DNA of 22,820 nt, taken from positions 1 to 22,820 of IMG/VR virus record IMGVR_UViG_3300037094_000058, one strand, 5' to 3'. This document shows positions 18 to 22,820 of this stretch, in pieces (position 1 is the first letter of the stretch; each line of letters starts with the position of its first letter). The notes under the pieces were generated by a model. The model was not told the DNA's origin. It ran no database searches and was given only the letters and a program-made list of their open reading frames with translations. The position numbers and the translations under genes are program-made. The stretch comes from a virus.

Positions 18-872
18 ATGAATCTGCGACCGCCTCCACCATCACGCAAGCAGGCCATACGCTCTCTGTCCAGAGTCCAACGGACGTGGCAAGAGGTTCT
101 CCAGGCCGCTGGGTATCCCACGACGGTCATCACGCTGGACTTCGAAACATACTTCGACACCGCGTCCAAGTATGACTTGAAGCAACTAAGCACTGTTGAG
201 TATCTGACTGACAAACGGGTAGAGGTGCTCGGTTTGGCAAGCAAGCATGTTGGCCACACGGAGGATGTGGCCCAATGGCACAACGGAAGTGAGGTGGCTG
301 CGGATTTTCTGACGCGGTTGCAATCAGTGTATGGTGACAACTTAGACCGCTGCACTCTCGTTTGCCACAATGCCCCGTTCGATTGTTCTGTGCTCGCCCT
401 GATTTATGGGGTCTATCCGAAATACATCGTGGATACATTGGCCCTCTCCCGTGCATGGGACACCCGCCGTAAGCACGGCCTGGAACACCTCGCCGAAGCC
501 TATAATCTAGGAGCTAAAGGGGACACAGCGAATTTTGATGGTCTGAGCAATCGGGTTCGGGTAACGCCCGCCAAGCTAGTGCGGGGCAAGGTTAAGCCCC
601 CAGCCCGTCGCTCGCCCATGCCCCCGGAGCAGCAGCAGGCCCTCGCCGGCTACGCAACGAACGACGTAGAACTAGAGTGGAAGTTGTTTACCCTACTGCT
701 CCCTCGTCTTAGCAGGCCCGAAGCGGAACTACTGCTGGCCCAGCATTGCGTTGAAATGACCACGAAGCCCGTCCTGATGGTGGACTATGCGAAAGCGGCC
801 AGTATCATCACTCGCATGGAGGCGAAGGTTCAAGAGGCGGTGGAGAAGGTGATGGTGATGTATGGAGACTAA
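18..872 (+). CDS. DNA polymerase family A, 3'-5' exonuclease part (split gene, N-terminal half)
   Basis: This 284-residue protein is the proofreading half of a phage family A DNA polymerase and would remove misincorporated 3' nucleotides. All DEDDy exonuclease motifs are visible: Exo I TLDFETY (D41, E43), Exo II CHNAPFD (N118, D122) and Exo III YATND (Y212, D216). There is no 5'-3' exonuclease domain. The protein stops after a helical stretch (about 250-284), just where an unsplit phage polymerase would continue into the thumb and palm. That remainder lies in the gene at 1389-2633, beyond an HNH gene. The ATG at 18 has a GGGAG ribosome site at 4-8. The last 11 bases overlap the HNH start. The two halves probably act as a complex; this is inferred. 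Confidence 0.9.
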   Translation: MNLRPPPPSRKQAIRSLSRVQRTWQEVLQAAGYPTTVITLDFETYFDTASKYDLKQLSTVEYLTDKRVEVLGLASKHVGHTEDVAQWHNGSEVAADFLTRLQSVYGDNLDRCTLVCHNAPFDCSVLALIYGVYPKYIVDTLALSRAWDTRRKHGLEHLAEAYNLGAKGDTANFDGLSNRVRVTPAKLVRGKVKPPARRSPMPPEQQQALAGYATNDVELEWKLFTLLLPRLSRPEAELLLAQHCVEMTTKPVLMVDYAKAASIITRMEAKVQEAVEKVMVMYGD

Positions 873-1392
873 AACCTGCTCTAAGTGCAAGCAGTTGAAG
901 CCGACATCCGCGTTCTATACTGCGAAACACCATAGGGATGGGCTGGCGTCCGCATGCAAAAGTTGCCGTCGAGTAGTTCAATATGTGTGGAACGGAAAAC
1001 ACCCGCACAAAAAGGCAGAATACTGCCGTCGGTCATATCGTCGGAATCTCGCCAAGAAACTTGCGGAATCAGCGGAATATCACCGGCTAAACCCGATGTA
1101 CCAACTAAAAGCCCACCTTCGGAGCTCGTTCGGACTTACGATCCAAGACGTAGAGCGGATGTTCGCGGATCAAAGCGGAAAATGTGCTAATTTGGGGTGC
1201 GGGAAGGAGATTAGCCTCGTCCCCGGTACAACAAACTATCGCCATGTGGATCATGACCACACAAAAGCGAAAGGCGACCCCGGATTTATCCGGGGCTTAC
1301 TGTGCGGGGGATGCAACGCGGCTGCGGGACTCCTAAAAGATTCGCCCGATCGGTGTCTAGGACTTGGCATTTACCTGGAGAGTATCCGATGA
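862..1392 (+). CDS. HNH endonuclease of endonuclease VII type, inserted between polymerase halves
   Basis: This 176-residue protein is probably a homing endonuclease that cuts intact alleles and spreads its own gene. An N-terminal zinc ribbon (C6, C9, C32, C35) precedes the nuclease core: C108 and C113, the HVDHDH motif (128-133), then C148 and C151 with N152, the layout of the recombination endonuclease VII family. The gene starts inside the end of the exonuclease gene (11-base overlap) and ends in an ATGA overlap with the polymerase gene, so no intron-sized flanking sequence remains. A close relative lies at 3431-3820. Base composition looks somewhat less GC-rich than in the genes further right, which fits a mobile gene, though this was not measured. 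Confidence 0.88.
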   Translation: METKTCSKCKQLKPTSAFYTAKHHRDGLASACKSCRRVVQYVWNGKHPHKKAEYCRRSYRRNLAKKLAESAEYHRLNPMYQLKAHLRSSFGLTIQDVERMFADQSGKCANLGCGKEISLVPGTTNYRHVDHDHTKAKGDPGFIRGLLCGGCNAAAGLLKDSPDRCLGLGIYLESIR

Positions 1393-2633
1393 CCCCAAGC
1401 GAATGGCGAGTTGCCTTATCGAGCGATAAACAGTTTGAAGCCCTGCTGTCTGACGCCCTGGCCGAAGTCGGGGAATCGGTGATTACATACACAAAGTTTG
1501 GTAAGCGTGGGGCGATGCTCGCGTTAGCTAAGGGGGATGAACCCCGTCGTCTGTTGGGAACCCACAAGAGCGAAAAGGTACGGGCGTTGATAGAAGGCCG
1601 TAACGCGATATCCACATGGCCCGTCCACATGAAGAAAGCTTTGGCCATCGTGGACATGGCTAAGGCCGGTGGAGGAAAATTGCCCGCATGTTTGAACTAC
1701 CATGCTGCCCATACTGGTCGCTATAGTGGGGGCGGTGGAATTAACCTTCAATCAATTGGGGCACGCGGGGAAGCACTGGTGTCTGAGATCAGAGAGATTC
1801 TGATTGCTCCACCGGGGCACAAACTTGTTGTGGTTGATCTGGCGGGCATTGAAGCCCGAGTGCTCGCGTGGTTGGCGGGTCAAGACGATCTGGTGCAGGC
1901 GTTCCGTGATGGAGCCGACATCTACAGCCAGTTCGCCAGTGCTTTCTACAACTGCCCTGTGCGGAAACCTAAAACTGGTGGCATTCCCAGTATCGAAAAG
2001 AAAATGAAAGATCGGCGGGGGTTCGGCAAGACGGTTATTCTAGGTGCAGGATACCAGATGGGACCCACCCGCTTCGCAGAGTATGCCAACTGCGATGAAA
2101 CTGTGGCGGCTTCTGCTATCAAGACATATCGTAGCACCTACGCCATGATCCCGGCTCTCTGGGATCGGTACAACAAAGCATTCATCTTCACCGCCAAGTA
2201 CGGGGAACCCCAGGACGTGAACAAGGTTCGGTTTGAATCCCGCCCTGAGTGTGATGTTGTGATTACGCTGCCCTCGGGTCGCGAGTTGCACTATCAGAAG
2301 GTGAGACTGGTTGACGATCGATATGGGGATAAAGTCGAGGTCTGGAACGACCTGACGAAGTCCTGGGATGGGCTGTTCGGGGGGTTGATCACGGAGAACG
2401 TGGATCAGGCGGTGAGTAGGGACCTCCTCACTGACGCCGTGCTGCGGGTTGAAGCCCGTGGATTCAAGGTGGCGTTGCTAGTTCATGATGAAATTGTGGC
2501 CGTAGTTCCTGATGGTCAGGCCGATCAAGCCCTCGCTACGGTGATTGAAGAACTGGTGAGGGAGCCGGACTGGGCACCGGGACTGCCCCTGGACGCAAGC
2601 GGCCACATCTCTTCACGCTACGGGAAGGACTAA
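1389..2633 (+). CDS. DNA polymerase family A, polymerase part (split gene, C-terminal half)
   Basis: This 414-residue polymerase domain has all three catalytic motifs: motif A VVVDLAGIEARVLAWLA (D150, E155), a motif B/O-helix segment around RRGFGKTVILGAGYQMG (R209/R210, K214), and motif C LVHDEIV (H366, D367, E368). The stretch HTGRYSGGGGINLQSI (108-123) matches the conserved template-binding region of phage PolA enzymes. The ATG at 1389 was chosen because it shares ATGA with the HNH stop. An earlier in-frame start at 1302 lies inside the HNH gene and would add an unconserved leader. The N-terminal SSDKQFEALL resembles the SSN-x-KF-x-LL segment that follows the exonuclease domain in unsplit relatives, so little is missing. 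It is in the same reading phase as the exonuclease half. Confidence 0.9.
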   Translation: MTPSEWRVALSSDKQFEALLSDALAEVGESVITYTKFGKRGAMLALAKGDEPRRLLGTHKSEKVRALIEGRNAISTWPVHMKKALAIVDMAKAGGGKLPACLNYHAAHTGRYSGGGGINLQSIGARGEALVSEIREILIAPPGHKLVVVDLAGIEARVLAWLAGQDDLVQAFRDGADIYSQFASAFYNCPVRKPKTGGIPSIEKKMKDRRGFGKTVILGAGYQMGPTRFAEYANCDETVAASAIKTYRSTYAMIPALWDRYNKAFIFTAKYGEPQDVNKVRFESRPECDVVITLPSGRELHYQKVRLVDDRYGDKVEVWNDLTKSWDGLFGGLITENVDQAVSRDLLTDAVLRVEARGFKVALLVHDEIVAVVPDGQADQALATVIEELVREPDWAPGLPLDASGHISSRYGKD

Positions 2634-5195: not shown

Positions 5196-5952
5196 TGGCG
5201 AGCGGCTCCTCCTGTACGGAAAGTCGGGCCTGGGGAAGACGACGCTCGCCAGTCAGGCTCCCGGTGCGGTGTTTATCCCGCTCGACGACGGCAGCAAGAA
5301 ACTCAACGCCCCGGCAATCGGCGGTGTGGAGTCGTTCACTGATCTGCGTGATGCGATCGCCCAGGCCACGAAGCTGATCCCCGTCAAGGGTAGCCTGGTG
5401 ATCGACACCATCACGAAGGCCGAGGCGATGATCGAGGCCCATGTGCTGGACACGGTGAAGACCGAGGGCGGCAAGACCGCCACCAGCATGGAGACATACG
5501 GCTACGGCAAGGGGTACAGGCACCTGCTGGAGCACTACCGGTTGATCCTGGCCGACCTGGACAACTTGATCCGTGCTGGCCGGAACGTCATCCTGCTGGC
5601 CCAGGAAGCCCCGGCCCGTATCGCCAATCAGGACGGCGTGGATTACATGGAGGCTGGTCCCCAGCTTTACCATTCCAACAACGCCAGCCTGCGAACCGAA
5701 ACCTGTGCCTGGGTTGACTTCGTGCTCCGCATCGGGTACAGTGACCTCAGCGTGTTCAAGGAAAATGAAAAGGCCCGTGCGGGCAAGGTCACCGGTGACC
5801 GCACGAGAGTAATTTACAGCGACGGCCCTCTCAGCTTCGTGGCTAAGAGCCGACCCGTCTCCGGAAAGAAACTGCCCGCCGCCATCAGCTTTGCCAATGA
5901 GCAGGATGATTCGCTGTGGGCCATGATCTTCCGGGGTGCTATCCCGGAGTAG
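5044..5952 (+). CDS. AAA_24 / Sak4-like RecA-type ATPase (single-strand annealing or recombination)
   Basis: This 302-residue protein has a Pro/Ala-rich leader (1-40), then a RecA-like core with Walker A YGKSGLGKTTLAS (58-70) and Walker B GSLVIDT (D121). The later stretch RNVILLAQEAPARI matches the next core strand. The pattern fits the phage nucleotide-binding family AAA_24, which includes Sak4-type annealing proteins that act with a single-strand-binding protein. The ATG at 5044 was chosen because AAGGAAG lies just upstream; the longer form would need a TTG at 5002 without a ribosome site. The TAG stop is embedded in the ribosome site of the GroES-like gene and is in phase with it. An annealing role is inferred from family and neighbours. 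Confidence 0.82.
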   Translation: MPPPTRPAPSAASPPASSTKPSLPPQPKPQAAPARQPAKTFSVVTQSSSTDGERLLLYGKSGLGKTTLASQAPGAVFIPLDDGSKKLNAPAIGGVESFTDLRDAIAQATKLIPVKGSLVIDTITKAEAMIEAHVLDTVKTEGGKTATSMETYGYGKGYRHLLEHYRLILADLDNLIRAGRNVILLAQEAPARIANQDGVDYMEAGPQLYHSNNASLRTETCAWVDFVLRIGYSDLSVFKENEKARAGKVTGDRTRVIYSDGPLSFVAKSRPVSGKKLPAAISFANEQDDSLWAMIFRGAIPE

Positions 5953-5961: not shown

Positions 5962-6291
5962 ATGTTCAAACCGCGTAATACGTTAGTAGCAGTCAAACTC
6001 GATCCTATCTCTGCGGAGAAGAAAGTCGGCAACATTGTTGTCGGCACTGGGTCCGATGAGTTCGGGACCGGAATCGTTGTGGCCGTGGGGCCGGGGACCG
6101 TGCACGCCGAAGGTGGCGTCTCTGAAACCGCCGACCTTCACCCCGGTGTCGCTGTCCTGGTCAAGGCGTTTAACCTGCGACCGTCTCGTCTCGGGGGCAC
6201 TGAGAAGGCCCCTGCGTATATCTCGTACGAGTATGAAGGGGGCACCGTCGCCCTCTTCGAGCAGAGCAGCATCGCTCTGATCCTGGACTGA
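5962..6291 (+). CDS. GroES-like co-chaperonin (Cpn10)
   Basis: This 109-residue protein has the Cpn10 layout: N-terminal RNTLVAVKLDPISAEKKVGN corresponding to the GroES start, a loop (VVGTGSDEF, about 26-34) where the mobile GroEL-binding loop lies, then TGIVVAVGPGTV matching the conserved GEVLAVG strand. Further on are HPGVAVLV, corresponding to VGDIVIF, and a C-terminal SSIALILD matching ESDILAIVE. It is slightly longer than bacterial GroES (about 95-97). The mobile loop lacks an obvious hydrophobic IVL tripeptide, so partner contacts may differ. No GroEL gene is present, so it would cap the host chaperonin, perhaps for virion proteins, as T4 gp31 does; that role is inferred. It sits inside the recombination cluster, not by structural genes. 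Confidence 0.78.
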   Translation: MFKPRNTLVAVKLDPISAEKKVGNIVVGTGSDEFGTGIVVAVGPGTVHAEGGVSETADLHPGVAVLVKAFNLRPSRLGGTEKAPAYISYEYEGGTVALFEQSSIALILD

Positions 6292-7262: not shown

Positions 7263-7336
7263 GCACACCGTAGCTGAACCGGTAAAGCACCGGGCACTAG
7301 GTCCGGGAGATATGGGTTCGAGTCCCATCGGTGTGC
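7263..7336 (+). tRNA. tRNA with CTA anticodon (possible amber suppressor)
   Basis: The cloverleaf folds by eye. The acceptor stem is CACACCG (7264-7270) with CGGTGTG (7329-7335). T8 and A9 are followed by a D-arm with GCT/AGC pairing and G18-G19. The anticodon stem CCGGG (7290-7294) pairs with TCCGG (7302-7306), then a 5-base variable loop, and a T-arm ATGGG/CCCAT around TTCGAGT. The seven-base anticodon loop is CACTAGG, which places CTA (7297-7299) at positions 34-36, able to read UAG. Two oddities: position 33 is A, not the near-invariant T, and an extra G (7263) can pair with C73 (7336), the pair that marks bacterial histidine tRNAs. CCA is not encoded. Misassignment through the unusual loop is possible. 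Confidence 0.7.
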
Positions 7337-7356
7337 CTTAACTAGGAGTACAGAAC

Positions 7357-8703
7357 ATGGCAACGATCCTTGTAGCATCAGGCGACGACCTCGCCGCAAA
7401 AGTTCAAGCGGCACACGCCGGCGACGTAGTTCAACTGGCGTCTGCCACATGGACTCTGGTCGCCAGTTTCTTCATTCCCTCGGGTGTGACGCTCCAGGGC
7501 GACCCGGACGGAGAATCCGAAATCATCTTCAAACTCTCGGGCCAGGACCTTCACGGTATCGTGCTTCCTGCCAACGCCAGCAACATCACCATTCGCAACG
7601 TGGATATTGTGTCTAGCAATGGCCTGATCAAGATGTGCGACGGGCAGGGGTATAATGTTGTCACCATTACGGGCTGCTCATTCGAGTACGGCGGCGGGCA
7701 GTACGCCAGCGGCACTGATGTCTTCGGCATCTTCGCCACGATCCCCGGGTTTGGTCTGACCATCAGCAACAACCTCTTCCACGACTCCCCGAACTCCAAC
7801 CGCAACTGGGAGTTGTACAATCAAACGAATCTCACGCTCAAGGACAACACCTTCCACAACATCGTGGATGGTGGCCACGTCGTCGAGCCCGGCAACAACT
7901 TCATTTTTGACCACAACATCGGCTCTGGCATCCAGCGGATGGGGCAGGAGATTCAGGGCAACGGCGTCGTGACTGGCATGCAGGTCACCAACAACACCTT
8001 CTACGACTGGCGTAACCCCTACGAAGACAGCTTCGGTATGTCCATCGTCATGCTGAACGCGGTCAGCCCCCTGATCCAGAGTAACTACGTCGAGTTCAGT
8101 ATGGCCCCTGGGGCAGTCTGGGGGCCGAAGGACTCCACCGGGGCTAACCGGTTCGGGTACGGCTACGAACTGGGAGGCAGCAATGTTCAGCTACTCAGTA
8201 ATACCTTCGTGGCTCTCTTTCGCTGTGGTGCGGGATACTGCACTGCCAGCAAGACGACCTACGCCAAGGGGAACACCTCCTACGACGCCAACAAGTTTGC
8301 CCAGTGGGGAGACTTTACAGCGGAGACTGGTGGAGCGTACACCAACGCGGCTACCCTTCTTTCTGACAATGCGGTAGAAACCGGCCCGGCACCACTCCCA
8401 AACGTCGCACCGGTGCCCGCCCCAGTTGTGGTGGTCGTGGCACCGACTCCCGCACCAGTTGTTACGCCTGTGGTGCCCGTCTCCACTACTCCGCCAGTCG
8501 TGACTCCTACTGCCCCTGTTGTGGCACCCACCGCCCCCGCAGTTACTGTTAAGACCATCGTCATCAGCCTCGTCGAATCTGATGGCTCGAAGGTGGACTA
8601 TAACCTGTCAGTGAGTCTCGTACCACCCAAGCACGTCGCCTCCGGCGTCCTGGCACTGGAGTTGTCAGACGGCACGACGCAGATGTATACGATCAAGGTC
8701 TGA
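7357..8703 (+). CDS. right-handed parallel beta-helix protein (pectate-lyase-like fold)
   Basis: This 448-residue protein has residues 1-330 in repeated short strands with asparagine ladders (NITIRNVDIVS, FGLTISNNLF, NLTLKDNTFHN, GMQVTNNTFYDW, NVQLLSNTFVA), the signature of a parallel beta-helix. It opens like a family entry domain (ILVASGDDLAAKVQAAHAGD). A Pro/Val/Thr linker follows (about 347-400), then a small beta domain (400-448). There is no signal peptide. Such folds are typical of tailspikes and polysaccharide lyases, but no catalytic set can be assigned. It is oddly placed between a tRNA and the primase on the early-gene strand, away from the structural block. AGGAG at 7343-7347 precedes the ATG. 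Confidence 0.7.
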   Translation: MATILVASGDDLAAKVQAAHAGDVVQLASATWTLVASFFIPSGVTLQGDPDGESEIIFKLSGQDLHGIVLPANASNITIRNVDIVSSNGLIKMCDGQGYNVVTITGCSFEYGGGQYASGTDVFGIFATIPGFGLTISNNLFHDSPNSNRNWELYNQTNLTLKDNTFHNIVDGGHVVEPGNNFIFDHNIGSGIQRMGQEIQGNGVVTGMQVTNNTFYDWRNPYEDSFGMSIVMLNAVSPLIQSNYVEFSMAPGAVWGPKDSTGANRFGYGYELGGSNVQLLSNTFVALFRCGAGYCTASKTTYAKGNTSYDANKFAQWGDFTAETGGAYTNAATLLSDNAVETGPAPLPNVAPVPAPVVVVVAPTPAPVVTPVVPVSTTPPVVTPTAPVVAPTAPAVTVKTIVISLVESDGSKVDYNLSVSLVPPKHVASGVLALELSDGTTQMYTIKV

Positions 8704-11055: not shown

Positions 11056-11889
11056 ATGTTACCATCAGGAAAGCAGGACAGAAAGGACCGGCCCGTGTTC
11101 AGTGGAGTATTCAAATACTTCCCTGACGCCTTGGCCGAGGTCGCCCACGTATCCTTTGTTGGCAACGTCCAGCATAATCCAGGCCAGCCCATGGCGTGGA
11201 GCAGGCATAAGAGCACTGATCATGGTGATTGCATCGCCCGGCACCTGCTGGAAGCCGGTACCACCGACAGTGACGGCCTGCGTCATTCGGCTAAGGTAGC
11301 CTGGCGTGCCCTGGCCCTGCTCCAGATCGAACTGGAAAACGAAGCGAAGCCCACGCCCTTCGAAGAGGTCGTCGGAATGAAGATGGAGGGGGCGTTCGGC
11401 CCTCTCATGTACGCCAACACCCACACGGACGCACGGGAGCCGGCTGCTTACGAAGCGGAACGTAAAGCCGCTGCCGTGGCAGACCATGTCGGCGGAAGCG
11501 AGCAGGTGCCGTTCATGACGGCTGCTTCGTTCGTCCCGCCGCCGCCCACTTTCTATATCGCCGGACCCATGAGGAATTACCCGGACTTCAACTTCCCCGC
11601 CTTCGATGCCGCCAAAGCACACCTGGAGGCCATGGGCTGTAATGTGATCAGCCCTGCGGACATGGACCGGGCGGACCCGCAACCCCGTGCGGCAGACACC
11701 CTTCCGCAGTACGTGTATGCGAAGCGGGATGCTGAGGCTCTGATCACGCTGGCGGAGGATAACAGCAACTTCAACCTGGAGAATGGCATCTACATGCTGC
11801 AGGGGTGGCAGAGGAGTAAGGGGGCACGTGCTGAACACGCCCTGGCCGAGTGGCTGGGACTGAAGATCGTTTATCAGGAGAACGAATAA
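11056..11889 (+). CDS. dATP/dGTP diphosphohydrolase-like domain fused to a DUF4406-like domain
   Basis: This 277-residue protein has two domains. Residues 10-95 (FSGVFKYFPDALAEVAHVS, NPGQP, KSTDHGDCIARHLL, DGLRHSAKVAWRALALLQIE) match my memory of the N-terminal domain of phage dATP/dGTP diphosphohydrolases, which hydrolyse purine dNTPs to shift the precursor pool. Residues 165-277 (FYIAGPM, FDAAKAHLEAMG, ISPADMD, GWQRSKGARAEHALAEWLGL) match DUF4406, related to nucleoside deoxyribosyltransferases. A Pro-rich joint (159-164) separates them. It sits in the replication block, as expected for precursor control. The substrate cannot be read from sequence. The stop TAA shares its last A with the next ATG. 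Confidence 0.72.
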   Translation: MLPSGKQDRKDRPVFSGVFKYFPDALAEVAHVSFVGNVQHNPGQPMAWSRHKSTDHGDCIARHLLEAGTTDSDGLRHSAKVAWRALALLQIELENEAKPTPFEEVVGMKMEGAFGPLMYANTHTDAREPAAYEAERKAAAVADHVGGSEQVPFMTAASFVPPPPTFYIAGPMRNYPDFNFPAFDAAKAHLEAMGCNVISPADMDRADPQPRAADTLPQYVYAKRDAEALITLAEDNSNFNLENGIYMLQGWQRSKGARAEHALAEWLGLKIVYQENE

Positions 11890-14224: not shown

Positions 14225-14498
14225 TCTTCAGGTGGGACTTAACCCAGCCCCAGGCTGCGGCTAACCCCGCCGCAAGCCCAGCACTGAACACCCCGTACCC
14301 GATCAGAGCATGCTTCTGATCCTTCTCCAGTTTGTCGAGCCTGCCATCTGACGTAGCGGCGCACGCCTTCAGGTCTTTCACATCCTGGATAAGCGGGGTC
14401 ATGGAGTTTTGTAACTCGGTACGGACGGCCTGCACCATCGGTTCAACGAAGTGTTTGGTGAACTGATCGACATCATCAAGGTTAATCTGGATTCCCAC
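14217..14498 (-). CDS. coiled-coil plus single membrane helix protein, holin/XhlA-like
   Basis: This 93-residue protein has residues 5-65 in a long amphipathic helix (FVEPMVQAVRTELQNSMTPL, LIQDVKDLKACAATSDGRLD, KLEKDQKH) and residues 66-85 in one membrane helix (ALIGYGVFSAGLAAGLAAAW), followed by a short basic tail. This layout resembles XhlA-type and other phage membrane proteins linked to lysis, but the sequence alone does not prove it. The start is GTG and overlaps the end of the large upstream gene by 17 bases; the ribosome site is weak (AAGGCGG). It is the last gene of the leftward block. Confidence 0.6.
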   Translation of the reverse strand: MGIQINLDDVDQFTKHFVEPMVQAVRTELQNSMTPLIQDVKDLKACAATSDGRLDKLEKDQKHALIGYGVFSAGLAAGLAAAWGWVKSHLKIS

Positions 14499-17400
14499 TG
14501 GGCACCGCCTTTACTACTTTGTCACGGAGAGTCTCCCACGCCTGATACTCATCCGGCGAAGTTTTCTCCTCCTGGATATTTCCCATACGGTCGTAAAGTC
14601 CCTGACGCATTGCGTTCTGTTCCTCGGGGGTCGCTTTATCCCACGCCTTACTGAGCATCCACGGAGTCAACTGGGTATCATATACCAGGGAGCCGATACC
14701 ATTGGGGGCTTGGGATCGTTTATCCACTGACGACGCGATCGACTCCGTCATCCAGGGCTTATCTCGCATCTCGGCTCCCACCTCGTCCCGACTCCTACCC
14801 TCTTTGAGTTCCGCCGCCCACCGGGCCTCTGAGGTGTGCATATCCTGTGACCGAAGATTCCGGCCACCTGTCTCAGATAGACTGTGGAGATCATCGAAGA
14901 TCGACTGCTGGGCAGCAGAGTCTGTGGGGTGCGAAACGTGAACACCCCCCGCTTGGGCTGCTGTGTCCCTAGCCTTCTGAAGGAAGGTGCGGGGCGGCTC
15001 CTCTGCCGGCTCGCTCTTGAAGGGTTCAGTGAATACCCCGGACAGCAGACTGCCGCCGACATGAGCCGCACCACGAGCCACATTACCGAGTAGCGAACCC
15101 TCATCAGGTCGGACCTGGTTACCTTCGCGGTCCTTGTTCTCGTAGGTTTCCTTCAGAGCGTTGAAGGTGGGGTTCAGTTTGTTCAGCGTAGAATGAACTG
15201 GGTTGTCATACATCGCCAGGGCGTCCGCAACAGTGCTACCCCAGTTGAGACGGCCTTCGTTGCCATTCTCGTCGGGGATGCCAGTGCGGGGGTGAACCAG
15301 GTCTGTGAGGTCCTTGGGCTTCTCCGCAGTCCCGGTGTTCAGCTTCGTCATTAGCATCTGGAGAGCGGTGCTGATCACTGCTGTGGTCCCGACCATACCG
15401 GCAAATGCGGAGCCAGTCGCGATACGGGCAGCCTTGTCGCCCGCGATCGCGTTCGTAAGATTCGCGACCTGACCTTCCCAGTACCGTTCTGCTGGCAATG
15501 CGATCTCTGCGATCGACCGCCCGACCGTCTGCTTGAACTCTGGGGACCTGATGTGGGCACCGATCATGCGTTGAACGGCGTCAGCCTCAGCCGCCATCTC
15601 GGTACGACCTTGCTCCAGGGAAACACCCTGACGCATCTGGCGTTCAGCAACACCCTTCAGGTGGGCCGCGACCATGTTAGGGAGAATTTCCCCAAACTGG
15701 TAATCGTGCGGCATGGAGAGAACGTGGCCCACAGCCTTTGCGTAGTCCCCCTCCTTCACGGCGGTGAAAACATTCTTGAGGGGACCGGCGGGATTTTCTC
15801 CGACAACGGAGCGAAGTCGTACCGCTGGATTCACAGACATCACCCGCTCACCGACCTCACCGGCGGTCCCACTCTCCAGGGCACGCCGCAGTTTACTACC
15901 TGAGACCTGGCCGGCTGTGGCAGCATCAATCAGGCGTGCGGTCCTGGCTCCGGTATCCCCACCCTCACGGAAAAGGCTGGCGGTGTTCAAGCCGATCATG
16001 TTGGCAGCGGCTTTCGCGGAATGACCCATGCTCAGAGCGTACCGCAATTTGAGGCTCCCGCGTGCGAGTGATTGGGCGATGCCAGCGACGGTACCTTGTA
16101 TTGGCTGCTCGCTGAAGTTATTCAGTTTCGCGGCATCCTCGGGGGCCATGTAGAATGTGCCCTTCTGTTCCCGGCCAGTGAACGCATGGCTGGAGTCATC
16201 GGGAAAATCATTAGGACCTGGACGGTTATAGGTTGGTTCCTGGGCATCAAGAAACTTCTGGCCGTCGAAGTACGACATCCCGGCGACCCGGCCAACCTTC
16301 TGAGCCGGCAGAGATTCCTTCCGCGTCTCAGAACCGAGGATGCGATCATTAACCGGGATCAGCCCCTCGGGGGCCTTCTGCCCATCAGGTACCCATGTAG
16401 AGCGACCGTCATCCTCCAAGTCCCGCATCGTCCGCCGCGAGTTGAGGTTCTTCTCCACCTCGTATTGCCGGGCGATCTGCATATCCAGGGGGTTGTCGAA
16501 CTTGGGCTTCCCACCGTGGGCGATGGCGGCGTCGTAGGCTTCGCTAAACGTATCGTACTTCTGACGCTTCAGAGGGTTGTTGGTGCCAGCCACGGAGTTG
16601 CCTGTCCCGCCTCCCTGGTTATCAGGGAATGAGAACAGGCGGGACAGACCCTCGCCTTCGGGATCAAGATGCTTGATGCCGAGATCGATGGCGTCCTGTG
16701 CGTTCTTCTGACGTTGCTCCTGGAGCAGGCCAATCGCCTTCTCCACCGCTGGATGAGAACCGGCAGGTACCCGGCCCTTCTCCACCTGATCCATCCAGGT
16801 CTTCGTTGCCGCAGCATCCTTATCAAACGTGGGTACGTGCCCACGGGCGGGCTTCATCTGTGCTTCAAAGTCATGACCAGCCTTCTCTGCTTCACCCAGG
16901 GACTGCCGTACATCCAGGGAGGTTTCCTTTCCTGCTGATCCTCGGAGCGTACCGAGAAAAGACGCGGCCCTGGACATCAGAGATGGGGCTTGAGATTGAA
17001 CTGCACCGGGGGACGCTTGCTGTCCCTTTACGCCGTTGTACTGGTTGGGAAGCAACCCTGCCTTCTGCTGGGCGTAGGTCGTGTTCGCCGGGTTGGCCTG
17101 GTTGGCTGCCCCATGGGGTCCGTAGTTTACCCAGGAATTCTGCCCCCGTGTCTCAGCGGTCATGGCCGGCTTGGCAGCATCAGAGTACATGGCAACGTGC
17201 TGCTTCCAGGCGTGCTCCTCACCCTTGGGGCCGAAGCCGTTACCTTCCTGGGCGTGACCGAAATAATCATGGACTGCACGGAACACCGAATTGTAGTTCA
17301 TCCCGGTGCCAGGGGCTTCCTCGGCCAGCGGGTGGTCCGCCGGCATGGTGACGCCCGTGTAGACGTAGAGATGTCCCTTCGCGGCGTCAGCCGCCATTTC

Positions 17401-19077
17401 CTTGGAGTTGGCGTACGGCTGGCCTTCCTTCGTCCAGGGTTCGATCTTGACTCCCTGATCCTTCAGGTAGTTGTACTGATCCAGCGTCTCTTTCTTCAGA
17501 GCGTCATAGCTGGCCTTCACGGCTGGATCGTTCGGGTTGTGCTGCATCGCCTCATAATGCTTGGCGATTTCACCAGCCCGTTCTGTGTCCACTGGCTCGT
17601 AATTCCGATCAGGGTTGTGCTCGATGCCGGCCTGCTTGGCATATCCCTCGGCGTGACCCCTGATGGTTTCGTTCGGGGTAAGCTGACTCTTCAAATTTTC
17701 TGAAGGTTCCTGAACTTCCTCCGGGGCCTTGAACTCGTGCTCGGGAAGTGGTCCAGTGTCTTCGGCTCGCTGGCCTGGGTTTGGCTCTGCGGACTCCGTC
17801 CGACGTTCGGTGTCGTGTAAACGCTGTTCCAAGTCCCGAATACGATCACGGGCTTCCTCGGGAACGCCGGTACGGCCAGTCTTCGGGCCTTCCTCGAATG
17901 TCGCCGCTTGCTCCTGTTCCGGTGTCAACCCAGGGCCAAGATCAGGCTTATGGTCCACTGTCTCCACTTCGGGTGGGTTCTCTACCCGTCCACGCAGGGC
18001 CGCGAAGTCGTAGGGCCGCTGGGCGTCTTCCTCGGGGGTTGCTGCCCGACTGGGGTGTCCAGCCAAGTCACCGGGGGCGTTGAGCGGGCGATCTTCAGAT
18101 ATCGTTTGCTCCATACGTGCCTTGGCGGCATCCAGGGCGTTAGATGGCTCCTGGGTCGCCGTTTTCGGTTCCGCAGCAGGGCGGGCCGGTTCTGGCTGGG
18201 CGTTGGGCGTCTGACCTGGTTCGGTCAGGGCCTCATGGCCAGCGGAGAGAGCCCCGAAGGCCCCTTGCTGCACCACGCCCTGGGTTAGGTCCTGGTTGGG
18301 GTTGACGGTGAACTTGGCGACGAGGTTCCCCGCCGCCTGGACGCCGGCCTGGGCCAGGCCACGGGTGACAAGCTGGGGGCCCCATTTCGCGATCAAGCCA
18401 GGCAACACCTTCCCGAGAGCCGGCTCCACGGCTTCCGCCGCACCTTTACCGATAGGGAGGGCTTGAAGAACGCCCTGAAGAGTCCGGGTCGTTTCAAAGA
18501 TGCCGGCAGACACAGGATCAACCTGATGACCGGCAGCACGCTGCTGAGCGACTTCCTGTTCGCCCTCATGGGCACCGGCTGTGGCGAAGACCGGGAGAGC
18601 AGCCGGACCGGAGGCCACCGCAGCCCCCAGCGTGCCCACGGCCCCGCCGAGTTTACTAGCAAGGGCATTGGGATCAGTCTGAAACGTAGGAGCGGTCTGC
18701 ACGGGGGTGGGCAGCACTGACTCGGCAACCTGGGTGAATGGCTGACCAACACCGTGCAGAGCAGAAGCCGCGAAGTTACCCGCTGCACTCCGGTCTTGGG
18801 GTTTGGCCCCGATGAATGACGCAGCAGCCTGAGCGATGGGAGACTCTGGGATCGTGCCCGTGAGATACCCGAGGCCAACCTTCAGGTTAGTCAGGAAACC
18901 CGGATGAGCTACTGCCTCTGCCGGTGTTGGCCCCAGGCGGGGTTGGGCCTGCGGGGTTACCGGGACCAACTTCGTGGGGTCGAAGCTGGGGGCGTTCCCC
19001 ACCGGCACCAGACGGCTCGGATCAAATGCTGGAGGTTGGTCCACGGGGACGAGGTTGGCAGGATCGAAATCAGCCAT
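14482..19077 (-). CDS. very large polyvalent/ejection-type phage protein
   Basis: This is a 1531-residue protein. It opens with three copies of FDP-x-x-LVPV (4-12, 18-26, 32-40; 14-residue period), as seen at the start of some large internal virion proteins. Residues about 140-290 are Ala/Gly-rich and weakly hydrophobic. A Pro/Glu-rich charged linker follows. A compact domain then contains GHLYVYTGV, FRAVHDYFGHAQEGNGFGPK and ETRGQNSWVNYGPHG; I recall this block from other giant phage proteins, with unknown function. The C-terminal third is helical and includes LTDLVHPRTG, GNEGRLNW and HSTLNKLNPTF, also common in such proteins. It is probably carried in the virion and delivered with the DNA; this is inferred. 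The start lacks a strong ribosome site. Confidence 0.72.
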   Translation of the reverse strand: MADFDPANLVPVDQPPAFDPSRLVPVGNAPSFDPTKLVPVTPQAQPRLGPTPAEAVAHPGFLTNLKVGLGYLTGTIPESPIAQAAASFIGAKPQDRSAAGNFAASALHGVGQPFTQVAESVLPTPVQTAPTFQTDPNALASKLGGAVGTLGAAVASGPAALPVFATAGAHEGEQEVAQQRAAGHQVDPVSAGIFETTRTLQGVLQALPIGKGAAEAVEPALGKVLPGLIAKWGPQLVTRGLAQAGVQAAGNLVAKFTVNPNQDLTQGVVQQGAFGALSAGHEALTEPGQTPNAQPEPARPAAEPKTATQEPSNALDAAKARMEQTISEDRPLNAPGDLAGHPSRAATPEEDAQRPYDFAALRGRVENPPEVETVDHKPDLGPGLTPEQEQAATFEEGPKTGRTGVPEEARDRIRDLEQRLHDTERRTESAEPNPGQRAEDTGPLPEHEFKAPEEVQEPSENLKSQLTPNETIRGHAEGYAKQAGIEHNPDRNYEPVDTERAGEIAKHYEAMQHNPNDPAVKASYDALKKETLDQYNYLKDQGVKIEPWTKEGQPYANSKEMAADAAKGHLYVYTGVTMPADHPLAEEAPGTGMNYNSVFRAVHDYFGHAQEGNGFGPKGEEHAWKQHVAMYSDAAKPAMTAETRGQNSWVNYGPHGAANQANPANTTYAQQKAGLLPNQYNGVKGQQASPGAVQSQAPSLMSRAASFLGTLRGSAGKETSLDVRQSLGEAEKAGHDFEAQMKPARGHVPTFDKDAAATKTWMDQVEKGRVPAGSHPAVEKAIGLLQEQRQKNAQDAIDLGIKHLDPEGEGLSRLFSFPDNQGGGTGNSVAGTNNPLKRQKYDTFSEAYDAAIAHGGKPKFDNPLDMQIARQYEVEKNLNSRRTMRDLEDDGRSTWVPDGQKAPEGLIPVNDRILGSETRKESLPAQKVGRVAGMSYFDGQKFLDAQEPTYNRPGPNDFPDDSSHAFTGREQKGTFYMAPEDAAKLNNFSEQPIQGTVAGIAQSLARGSLKLRYALSMGHSAKAAANMIGLNTASLFREGGDTGARTARLIDAATAGQVSGSKLRRALESGTAGEVGERVMSVNPAVRLRSVVGENPAGPLKNVFTAVKEGDYAKAVGHVLSMPHDYQFGEILPNMVAAHLKGVAERQMRQGVSLEQGRTEMAAEADAVQRMIGAHIRSPEFKQTVGRSIAEIALPAERYWEGQVANLTNAIAGDKAARIATGSAFAGMVGTTAVISTALQMLMTKLNTGTAEKPKDLTDLVHPRTGIPDENGNEGRLNWGSTVADALAMYDNPVHSTLNKLNPTFNALKETYENKDREGNQVRPDEGSLLGNVARGAAHVGGSLLSGVFTEPFKSEPAEEPPRTFLQKARDTAAQAGGVHVSHPTDSAAQQSIFDDLHSLSETGGRNLRSQDMHTSEARWAAELKEGRSRDEVGAEMRDKPWMTESIASSVDKRSQAPNGIGSLVYDTQLTPWMLSKAWDKATPEEQNAMRQGLYDRMGNIQEEKTSPDEYQAWETLRDKVVKAVPSGNPD

Positions 19078-19924: not shown

Positions 19925-20266
19925 TTAGTTACCTGTGGTTGGCGGGGCGGTATAAGTGACCGTTCCATCCGCATTGATCACGATGGTCGCACCAGGCGGG
20001 ACTGGAGAGGGTACTGTGATACCTTCGTAAGCGAGCACAAGAGTGGCGTATGCGGTGGCTGCCGTGAACAAGTCCCCGGCTCCCGTGCCGAAGGCATCGA
20101 AGACTTCCTGGGGATTGGGATTGCCGTAGATGAAACCCGCAAGTTGACTGAACAAGAGATCAAGGCCATTGTACAGATTGTTCATCCGCGTGGTGAACGC
20201 TGCGGCCTGAACCTGGACAGCCGTGAGGGATGGAGGGGTGATCGGGGTGATCAATTTTGGGGGCAT
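19925..20266 (-). CDS. small structural-type protein, unknown
   Basis: I do not recognise this 113-residue protein. Residues 14-85 are helical and mildly hydrophobic (FTTRMNNLYNGLDLLFSQLA, FTAATAYATLVLAYEG), with an asparagine/proline break in the middle. The end (residues 88-113) is a Pro/Thr-rich beta tail (GATIVINADGTVTYTAPPTT). It has one of the strongest ribosome sites in the window (TAGGAGAGAAC at 20267-20277), which suggests an abundant product such as a minor virion or tail-fibre attachment protein. This role is inferred from location only. Confidence 0.6.
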   Translation of the reverse strand: MPPKLITPITPPSLTAVQVQAAAFTTRMNNLYNGLDLLFSQLAGFIYGNPNPQEVFDAFGTGAGDLFTAATAYATLVLAYEGITVPSPVPPGATIVINADGTVTYTAPPTTGN

Positions 20267-20301: not shown

Positions 20302-22820
20302 TTAATTTTTTACCTCAATGAGTAGATAGGACATGAAAGTGGATGAGCCGGTATTCCCGAACGCGACTGAAACTCCGAAGTTGGAATTGACCGTAGTGTC
20401 TATGGCCGTGCCGATTTGAGAAACTAGCGTAGACGTACTGGTGGACCCTGTCAACCCAACGGTTCCGCCGGCGGACGCTGTACCACTGGACCCGTTCGTG
20501 AGAACAGTGAAATATGCGTCTACGGACCAGTGCTTATTGGTTCCTGCCACCGCCAGGGTGGATGTATCAAGAAGGACACTCGCCCCGAACCGAAGCTGAA
20601 AGTCCATCGTATTCGCCACGGTTGCGGTGTACGACCCAGTTGCGAAAAGATGTAGGGTGGAACCAGCAACCAACGTATTAGCTGGAATGACAGCGACTTG
20701 ATTATATTCAACTTGTGAAGTCGCTGTGATGGTTTGCGATTGGGTGGTGCTGACCAACAACGTACCACTCAGCACCTCGACGCCGTATGTCGTGTCGATC
20801 TTCGGAGTCGAAGACGTAGAGTTATACCATACCTCTGCGACTGCCGGGGACCCCGGATCAGCCGACAGTGTTTGGATGGCAGCGGCAGTGTTCGTCTCCC
20901 ACGTTATGCCAAGCGGATCACTGGGGTTTGAGACAGGGACCAGGCCAGAAGCCCCAACTGGCAACCGAGTTGGGGTCGTGCCATATATGAGAAGATCACC
21001 CTTTGTGGTCAGGGGGTTGGCGAGCAGGGTCCCGCTGGTTGGCAGAGTCACGTTGGTATTCGCCGTGGTGGTAAGCGTTGTGGTGAAAGCCCCACTAGTG
21101 GTCAGGTTGCCGCCCAGCGTGATGGTCTTCGTTCCATTGTTTACCCCAGTCCCGCCATAGGAGGGGCCAACAACAGTCCCATTCCAGGTCCCAGAACTGA
21201 TGGTTCCAACCGTGGTGATGTTAGCCCCCGTCATGGAGAGAACGCCACTGGTCAACGTCAGGCCATCTCCTGTCGTGACACTGGTGATAACCGCCGCAGC
21301 GGGGGTTTCCCAGTCCACCCCGTTGGTCGCTGCGGAGTTTACTGTCAGCACCTGGCCGTTGGTACCCACTGCCAGCCGACTGGGCGTCCCCACGCTGGTC
21401 ACAATGAGATCACCCTTCGTGGTCAGGGGGTTGGTCATCAGGGTGCCACTGGTAGGAAACGTGACATTCGTCGCCGCCGTCATGGTGAAGGTCGAATTGA
21501 AGGCCCCTGAGGTGGTAAGATTCCCGGCCAGAGTGAGTGTGTTAGACCCGTTGTTCACCCCCGTCCCACCGTAGGTGGGGTTGACCACGGTCCCCTGCCA
21601 AGTTCCAACTGTGATTGTCCCCACCGTAGTACAGGATGACCCCACGAACGCGATCGTGCCCGTGGAGTACGTGAGTCCGTCGCCGACAGTAACAGCAGTG
21701 ACATACTGGGCGGCTGGAGTCTCCCAGTCGATCCCATCGGTCGCGGCAGAGTTCGCAGTCAGGACCTGTCCGTTAGTGCCCACTCCCAGTTTGGCAACGG
21801 TCGTACTATACGTGAGAAGATCGCCCTTCGTGGTCAACAGGTTACCAGTTCCCCCGTAGGTCGTCGCGATTGGGGTAGCTTGCCAGGTCCCCGTCGTAAT
21901 GGTACCCACCGTCGTGAGCGATGAACCGATGAATGAGAGGGTTCCGCCACCGTTGAGATTCAACCCATCACCGTTAGTCACCGCCGTTACGATACTGGTG
22001 CTCGATGGAGTCGTCCAGTCGATTCCCCCTGACGCCGCAGAGTTGGCGGTCAACACCTGACCGTTGGTCCCGACGCCCACTTTCGTCACAGCGGTTGTAT
22101 CGTAGGTGAGAAGATCACCCTTTGTCGTGAGGAGGTTTCCGGTGCCACCGTACGCAGTGGCGATTGGTGTCGCCTGCCAGGTCCCCGTCGTAATGGTACC
22201 CACCGTCGTGAGCGATGAACCGACGAACGCGATCGTGCCCGTGGAGTAAGTAAGGCCGTCACCCACGGTAACTGATGTAACATATGACGCGGGGACCGGC
22301 ACCAGAATATGTTGCGTACTACTGCTATCTTCAAAGATCAGTTGATTTGAAGCGTTAACCCACAAGGCATTGGTGAGCGTGCCACCGGGCGAGATGGCCG
22401 TAAACTGGATATCGTTTCGGGCGTGAATCGTCCCGTTGGTATCTACAAGGGACAGACCGCCGCTAGACCCTGACACATAATTTATCTGTCCTGTCGAGGT
22501 ACAGAGTTCGAACCCGGTATTCGAATATACGTTTCCATACAAATCCGCAAGAAGGGGACCGTTGCTGTAGTAGAGGTTTCCGCTGTTGTCTGCCAGGAGA
22601 CCGCCATCGCCGTAGTATAAGTTTCCGCCGGCGTTCGCCAGGAGACTGCCATCGCTGTAGTAGAGGTTTCCGTTCTCGTCCGCCAGGAGACCGCCATAGC
22701 CGTAGTATAAGTTTCCGCTCCCGTCCGCCAGGAGACTGCCATCGCTGTAGTAGAGGTTTCCATTCAAATCCGCAAGAAGGAGACCGTCATCGCCGTAGTA
22801 TAAGTTTCCGCTCTCGTCCG
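20302..22820 (-). CDS. tail fibre / host-recognition protein, 5' end outside the window
   Basis: The frame is open to the right edge; the first start codon in the window (TTG, 22767) lies inside a repeat and is not the true start, so about 838 residues of a longer protein are seen. The first part is a run of 15-residue units of type GNLYY-x-x-GGLLAD. The middle holds repeated modules TTVGTIT-x-GTW, YGGTG, LTTKGDLL, GTNGQVLTANSAA and DWETP, common in phage fibres. The last 190 residues are non-repetitive beta sequence (from about LSADPGSPAVAEVWYNS) and probably form the receptor-binding or trimer tip. It is the first visible gene of the leftward block. Confidence 0.85.
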   Translation of the reverse strand, partial: DESGNLYYGDDGLLLADLNGNLYYSDGSLLADGSGNLYYGYGGLLADENGNLYYSDGSLLANAGGNLYYGDGGLLADNSGNLYYSNGPLLADLYGNVYSNTGFELCTSTGQINYVSGSSGGLSLVDTNGTIHARNDIQFTAISPGGTLTNALWVNASNQLIFEDSSSTQHILVPVPASYVTSVTVGDGLTYSTGTIAFVGSSLTTVGTITTGTWQATPIATAYGGTGNLLTTKGDLLTYDTTAVTKVGVGTNGQVLTANSAASGGIDWTTPSSTSIVTAVTNGDGLNLNGGGTLSFIGSSLTTVGTITTGTWQATPIATTYGGTGNLLTTKGDLLTYSTTVAKLGVGTNGQVLTANSAATDGIDWETPAAQYVTAVTVGDGLTYSTGTIAFVGSSCTTVGTITVGTWQGTVVNPTYGGTGVNNGSNTLTLAGNLTTSGAFNSTFTMTAATNVTFPTSGTLMTNPLTTKGDLIVTSVGTPSRLAVGTNGQVLTVNSAATNGVDWETPAAAVITSVTTGDGLTLTSGVLSMTGANITTVGTISSGTWNGTVVGPSYGGTGVNNGTKTITLGGNLTTSGAFTTTLTTTANTNVTLPTSGTLLANPLTTKGDLLIYGTTPTRLPVGASGLVPVSNPSDPLGITWETNTAAAIQTLSADPGSPAVAEVWYNSTSSTPKIDTTYGVEVLSGTLLVSTTQSQTITATSQVEYNQVAVIPANTLVAGSTLHLFATGSYTATVANTMDFQLRFGASVLLDTSTLAVAGTNKHWSVDAYFTVLTNGSSGTASAGGTVGLTGSTSTSTLVSQIGTAIDTTVNSNFGVSVAFGNTGSSTFMSYLLIEVKN
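20960..22290 (-). repeat. long modular repeats in the fibre gene (about 285-414 bp)
   Basis: The module GTIT-x-GTW ... YGGTG ... GDLL ... NGQVLT ... W-x-TP recurs four times. YGGTG codons lie near 22141, 21847, 21562 and 21148. Two copies share a perfect 49-base run (21881-21929 and 22175-22223, 294 bp apart). The two left modules also carry an extra NLTTSGAF segment. Confidence 0.8.
22522..22820 (-). repeat. 45-bp tandem repeats coding GNLYY units
   Basis: The codons for GNLYY (plus-strand word GTAGTA-[GT]-A-[GA]-GTTTCC) start at 22567, 22612, 22657, 22702, 22747 and 22795, with a degenerate copy at 22522. Spacing is 45 bp, except 48 bp for the last pair, where one Leu codon is added. Units alternate between two versions (GTAGTAGAGG and GTAGTATAAG), giving a 90-bp higher-order period. 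The array continues beyond the window. Confidence 0.9.

Follow-up and report, generated by a model that had tools for sequence, protein, structure and literature searches.

Variable tandem repeats in phage tails, shafts built from 15-residue repeats and stalks that vary in length are already known, as the available text of three reports describes (PMC6949934, PMC7248032, PMC9704523). The BACON arrays of tail-associated proteins in crAss-like phages are, like the array presented here, duplicated tandem arrays of a beta domain, and their number differs among lineages (PMC6949934, available part). BACON is a whole Ig-like domain, whereas the unit here is a predicted hairpin of 15 residues. The order of the BACON domains is given there as stable and conserved in crAssphage, whereas the unit number here differs between genomes that are 94% alike. 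No Pfam match to the BACON family was found for the fibre (up to E 0.1) or for the arrays (up to E 5).

The shaft of the adenovirus fibre likewise consists of a 15-residue repeat whose number sets the length and differs by type (PMC7248032 and PMC8869412, as far as their available text goes). It shows no sequence match here, and our monomer model has stacked hairpins where the adenovirus shaft is a triple beta-spiral. Single-layer beta-sheets, such as those of the CPAP G-box/TCP domain, OspA and MORN1, are also made of successive hairpins with glycine at the turns (PMC3776556 and PMC7725318, available parts). The MORN unit is described as having 23 residues with GxG and YEGEW (PMC7725318, available part), features that the 15-residue unit here lacks. 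A MORN repeat was rejected, as the unit has 15 and not 23 residues and no YEGEW; the family was absent from the Pfam matches of the fibre and arrays. The Periscope Proteins of bacterial surfaces likewise carry a repeat stalk whose number of repeats differs between relatives and alters its reach; they are described as bacterial monomers with repeats of more than 50 residues and near-identical DNA (PMC9704523, available part), whereas the units here have 15 residues, are 58–91% identical and belong to a phage. This class was also rejected, given 15-residue units in a virus record.

Since phage fibres with variable tandem repeats have been described before, the array taken by itself is a modest finding. 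Its contribution is a repeat of 15 residues absent from the family libraries searched (the arrays matched Pfam and PHROG entries weakly), with a natural copy-number series of 5, 8 and 10 units between conserved ends. We consider it probable that the array encodes a beta-hairpin module, G-x-L-Y-Y-S-x-G-x-x-L-A-D-x-x, which forms a shaft-like part of a tail fibre, gains and loses units by recombination and diversifies its exposed residues in relatives. The fibre function and a trimeric fold are what we infer for it.

The repeat array of the window

The stretch analyzed (the window), 22,820 bases long, constitutes an entire virus record. An open reading frame on the minus strand (20302–22818, 838 residues) is open at its 5′ end, which lies beyond the contig, and begins inside a coding tandem array of a 45-bp repeat that reaches the contig end. 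Tandem Repeats Finder (TRF) reported a 45-bp period with 77% matches (score 292) and a 90-bp period with 88% matches (score 368). The same-base agreement within the array was 0.70 at a shift of 45 and 0.73 at a shift of 90, and the maximum in 2000 codon shuffles was 0.41. The array is real and coding. An earlier note, made from the window's letters, had described a 45-bp array running off the window, and TRF, the register of the reading frame and the shift agreement all confirmed this.

Read in the coding direction, the array starts with DES, the last three residues of one more unit cut by the contig end (22810–22820), followed by six GNLYY units (22537–22809) and a degenerate GNVYS unit, all on the minus strand. 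Five of the six GNLYY units measure 45 bp and one measures 48 bp. Unit 1 (22762–22809) is the long one. Its translation, GNLYYGDDGLLLADLN, has 16 residues owing to the extra leucine codon that the earlier note had reported for one unit, and we located this codon in the unit closest to the end of the contig. Unit 1 contains an out-of-register joint, and its tail, CTTCTTGCGGATTTG, is identical to that of unit 6. The next units are unit 2 (GNLYYSDGSLLADGS, 22717–22761), unit 3 (GNLYYGYGGLLADEN, 22672–22716), unit 4 (GNLYYSDGSLLANAG, 22627–22671), which is 91% identical to unit 2, unit 5 (GNLYYGDGGLLADNS, 22582–22626) and unit 6 (GNLYYSNGPLLADLY, 22537–22581). The degenerate unit 7 (GNVYSNTGFELCTST, 22492–22536) has a DNA identity of 38–44% to the other units. 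Hence, of the "at least seven GNLYY units" first counted, six stand and the seventh is the GNVYS unit. The count for the window is a lower bound, as the array is cut by the contig end and the 5′ part of the fibre lies beyond it. Units 1–6 are 58–91% identical to one another at the DNA level, and the longest exact repeat within the array is 36 bases.

The identity of the gene as a fibre gene is supported by a match to the PHROG 9851 tail fiber protein (E 6.5e-5, residues 185–309 of the reading frame) and by its position before a 113-residue gene (19925–20266, minus strand), which follows it directly. In the relatives described below, the gene after the array gene encodes a protein of 108–113 residues, and the window protein is 55% identical to this neighbor over 94 residues. 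The fibre body that follows the window array (20302–22491, minus strand, 729 residues) is built differently from that of the relatives. Since the neighboring gene is the same and the body is different, the array sits in differently built fibres in one gene slot. One relative (L002) has fibre-body repeats in common with the window and lacks the array. A tblastn search of annotated phages (50,697 records) with the fibre body was negative, and the searches yielded nothing closer to the window's own fibre. The body also holds its own longer, older set of repeats (95–224 nt, 60–81% identity, spaced 291–579 bases apart).

Odd and even units do differ at codons 3, 6 and 9, which read TTA, GGC and GGT in units 1, 3 and 5, and CTC, AGC and AGT in units 2, 4 and 6 (CCC in unit 6). 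The earlier note had called this difference consistent. The alternation is real but thin: it is carried by 4 of the 21 variable columns of the window units, and six of the 21 pair units 1 and 6 against it. (One codon of the long unit was skipped to align units in the analyses of unit order, columns and pN/pS.) The mean identity of window units is 0.817 for units two apart and 0.747 for adjacent units. This excess is matched by 58 of the 720 possible orders of the six units (8%) and, with the seventh unit included, by 1380 of 5040 orders. The difference between shifts of 90 and 45 is matched by 1513 of 5000 synonymous-codon shuffles. Two relatives with longer arrays have practically no two-unit excess (lag 2 minus lag 1 of −0.02 in L003 and 0.01 in L004), and their best TRF periods correspond to three units. 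Growth by doubling of a two-unit block, which had been read from the alternation, is thus only a possible course, because 58 of the 720 orders do as well and six columns back another grouping; we rejected it as a proven history on the same grounds. The window array is better termed a mosaic, for which a two-unit duplication is one possible origin.

Array length among relatives

Eight IMG/VR contigs carry the G-x-L-Y-Y-S-x-G-x-x-L-A-D-x-x unit, in a fibre gene before the small gene. Three of them were recovered with the array as query, four with a degenerate two-unit pattern and one with the C-terminal part. One contig, L009, holds only the end of a unit. The whole array is present in six contigs, with 5 units in L045, L046, L047 and L048, 8 units in L003 and 10 units in L004, and the N- and C-terminal parts that flank it are conserved among the relatives. 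L004 has twice as many units as L045 (10 against 5), at 94.0% identity between the two over 5461 bases. The array length therefore varies among relatives. The claim that the copy number can change was borne out by this comparison, which the earlier note had proposed: the counts between conserved ends are 5, 5, 5, 5, 8 and 10, and not constant. In L003, units 4 and 5, which are neighbors, have 96% identity and share an exact 50-base repeat, the mark of a one-unit duplication. The number of units may rise and fall, by one or more per step, as similar units undergo slippage or recombine unequally, and each such event would alter the length of the fibre.

The further claim, that the length varies quickly, is unsupported, since the four near-identical contigs (L045–L048, 98.7–100% identical over aligned pieces) all have 5 units and since L003 and L005 agree across their four common units. 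The closest units within the window are 91% identical.

Three of the nine distinct contigs end in the array, namely the window, L005, which starts in it, and L009, which starts in its last unit. A rough estimate gives 0.55 expected (Poisson P 0.019). Such ends would be expected if the sampled populations contained length variants or repeats, and also from a plain failure of assembly. Distortion by short-read assembly could in principle have produced both the odd–even pattern and the copy number, with unit 1 as a mosaic at the contig edge. The window is a whole contig, and units 1 and 6 share their 15-base tail, as such an origin would have it. However, no exact repeat in the window array exceeds 36 bases, a length that ordinary assemblers can bridge. 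A similar added codon is also found in L045 and L048, in the same half of a unit as in window unit 1 and away from the contig ends. We regard assembly distortion as improbable, and gain and loss of units by recombination as the better account.

Beyond these contigs, tblastn with the array and with the L004 protein against annotated phages gave no match, and two repeat patterns found no stretch in contigs of cellular genomes. In the literature library searched, the motifs GNLYY, LYYSNG, YYSDGS and LLADGS were not found described for phages; the one match concerned another virus. A profile of the repeat compared with PDB sequences gave no convincing chain, and the best E value, 0.88, was chance-like.

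Substitutions within the arrays

The alignment of L046 with L048 contains 24 differences over 7282 positions. Thirteen of these differences fall within the 231 positions of the array and 11 within the 7051 positions outside it (Fisher P 4e-14). All 13 array changes alter the amino acid, with eight at codon position 1 and five at codon position 2. The L045 gene is identical to that of L046, and its comparison with L048 shows 0 nonsynonymous changes and 1 synonymous change in the remainder of the array gene. The count of 13 nonsynonymous to 0 synonymous changes within the array has a P value of 0.043. Over the 100 codons of the tip, L045 and L048 show no amino-acid change, against 13 substitutions in the array. 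As the arrays of L045, L046 and L047 are identical, this divergence represents one pair of types and not four cases.

The unit-to-unit pN/pS is 1.76 in L003 and 1.84 in L004, and it is 0.45 in the window, 0.66 in L045 and 0.69 in L048 (calculated for L045 and L048 on their units other than the 16-residue one). Together with the array substitutions, these ratios point to diversification in relatives but give no sign of it in the window. Among 31 units (a count that excludes the three 16-residue units of the window, L045 and L048, the degenerate window unit 7, and the units of L046 and L047, which duplicate those of L045), Y5 is present in 31, L3 in 29, and L11 and G8 in 28 each. Columns 9, 10 and 14 each show 9–10 residue types.

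The restriction of the 13 array changes to codon positions 1 and 2 led us to consider whether the array is the target of a diversity-generating retroelement, in which a template copy undergoes reverse transcription, with errors at A, and the product is inserted into the repeats. In its favor, every one of these changes alters the amino acid, and C is the last base of many variable codons in L003 and L004. None of the nine records, which are fragments or of uncertain completeness, matched the reverse transcriptase family PF00078; a control search of 14 known genomes gave a match in 4. In the six sources scanned, no candidate template copy scored above the shuffled controls. On these two grounds the retroelement is a weak rival, and we consider it very improbable.

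Under the hairpin-module reading, the two strands would be formed by L-Y-Y and L-A-D, with columns 2, 7, 9, 10, 14 and 15 exposed, and the exposed residues would be under diversifying selection in relatives. Such diversification would imply a shaft in contact with the host or a competitor, and so more than a spacer. In one relative pair, the shaft repeats changed and the tip was unchanged. We tentatively suggest, as a possibility well short of an even chance, that the shaft repeats, unlike the conserved tip, are the fast-diversifying part that faces the ligand, with invariant L-Y-Y and L-A-D strands, hypervariable loop columns that recur many times over the length of the fibre, and a changing number of units. 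If the diversification is true, it would suggest a shaft that itself makes contact and changes faster than the tip, an unusual division of labor.

Two further clusters of substitutions between near-identical contigs were seen at 5818–5846 in L048 and at 8497–8509 in L003. In the latter, which separates L003 from L005, the changes are spaced by three bases, as expected of synonymous changes.

Predicted fold and further features

The earlier note had proposed modeling the unit as a fibrous beta fold. In the best of the AlphaFold2 models for the window piece, most of the array has pLDDT values of 87–96 and each stretch of 15 residues contains two short strands; the array blocks of the L004 model reach 71–93. 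The hairpins of the best model agree with this proposal, but confidence varies widely among the five models made of this piece (means of 77, 69, 56, 55 and 49), and all structural matches have Z scores below 8, a range in which a common arrangement suffices to produce them. AlphaFold2 is described as over-predicting confident solenoids for perfect repeats (PMC11795689, available part); the window units are imperfect repeats, and the caution still applies.

The best structural matches of the window model are to the CPAP G-box (Z 7.2, rmsd 5.5, 117 residues), a baseplate chain of phage PhiTE (Z 6.7, rmsd 3.2, 97 residues), MORN1 (Z 6.7) and OspA (Z 6.5), all of them single-layer sheets made up of hairpins. 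The array of the L004 model matches CatPSAM-H8 (Z 6.0, rmsd 8.4, 158 residues). Most matches of the L004 model lie on its C-terminal tip and include glycoside hydrolase family 98 modules (Z 6.2) and snail H-type lectins (Z about 4.2). With Foldseek, nothing in the PDB or BFVD reached E 0.001.

These match lists leave room for fibre shafts that they do not contain, such as the adenovirus type. The array could form a shaft of fixed length in which three chains are wound into a triple beta-spiral and the repeat number sets the length alone. The 15-residue repeat, the hydrophobic positions and the conserved glycine are shared features, and the adenovirus shaft has 15-residue repeats in a number that differs by type (PMC7248032, available part). 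However, the repeat profile matched no adenovirus or other fibre chain in the PDB up to E 1, in a sequence search that misses relatives by fold only. The best monomer model folds alone as hairpins with pLDDT 87–96, although a monomer model is compatible with a trimer. Overall, we judge the triple beta-spiral unlikely and prefer the module of stacked hairpins.

Several other features of the window and its relatives were observed. The DNA polymerase of the window (18–2633, plus strand) is divided over two reading frames, an exonuclease (18–872) and a polymerase (1302–2633). The frame between these parts (862–1392) looks like a putative HNH endonuclease, and an Rfam search for introns in the window gave none above the cut-off. 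A reading frame of 1531 residues (14482–19077, minus strand) matches phage proteins in 200 records with its middle part. The coverage is at most 18% in the best 20 of the 200, and the names include lysin, large polyvalent protein and RelA/SpoT. Separate 18-bp arrays occur in L003 (841–1300) and L048 (340–713 and 3027–3620). At least the last of these encodes hexapeptides of the VYGNAR type on the minus strand, and we take the product of such an array to be probably a left-handed beta-helix protein. A tRNA with the anticodon CTA is predicted at 7264–7337 (plus strand) of the window, and three of the 22 reading frames checked end in TAG (2873, 5950 and 11044). Reading through two of these stops leads in frame into the next reading frame (5962–6291 and 11056–11889). 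From the sequence, the tRNA and the possible read-through hint at amber suppression or recoding.
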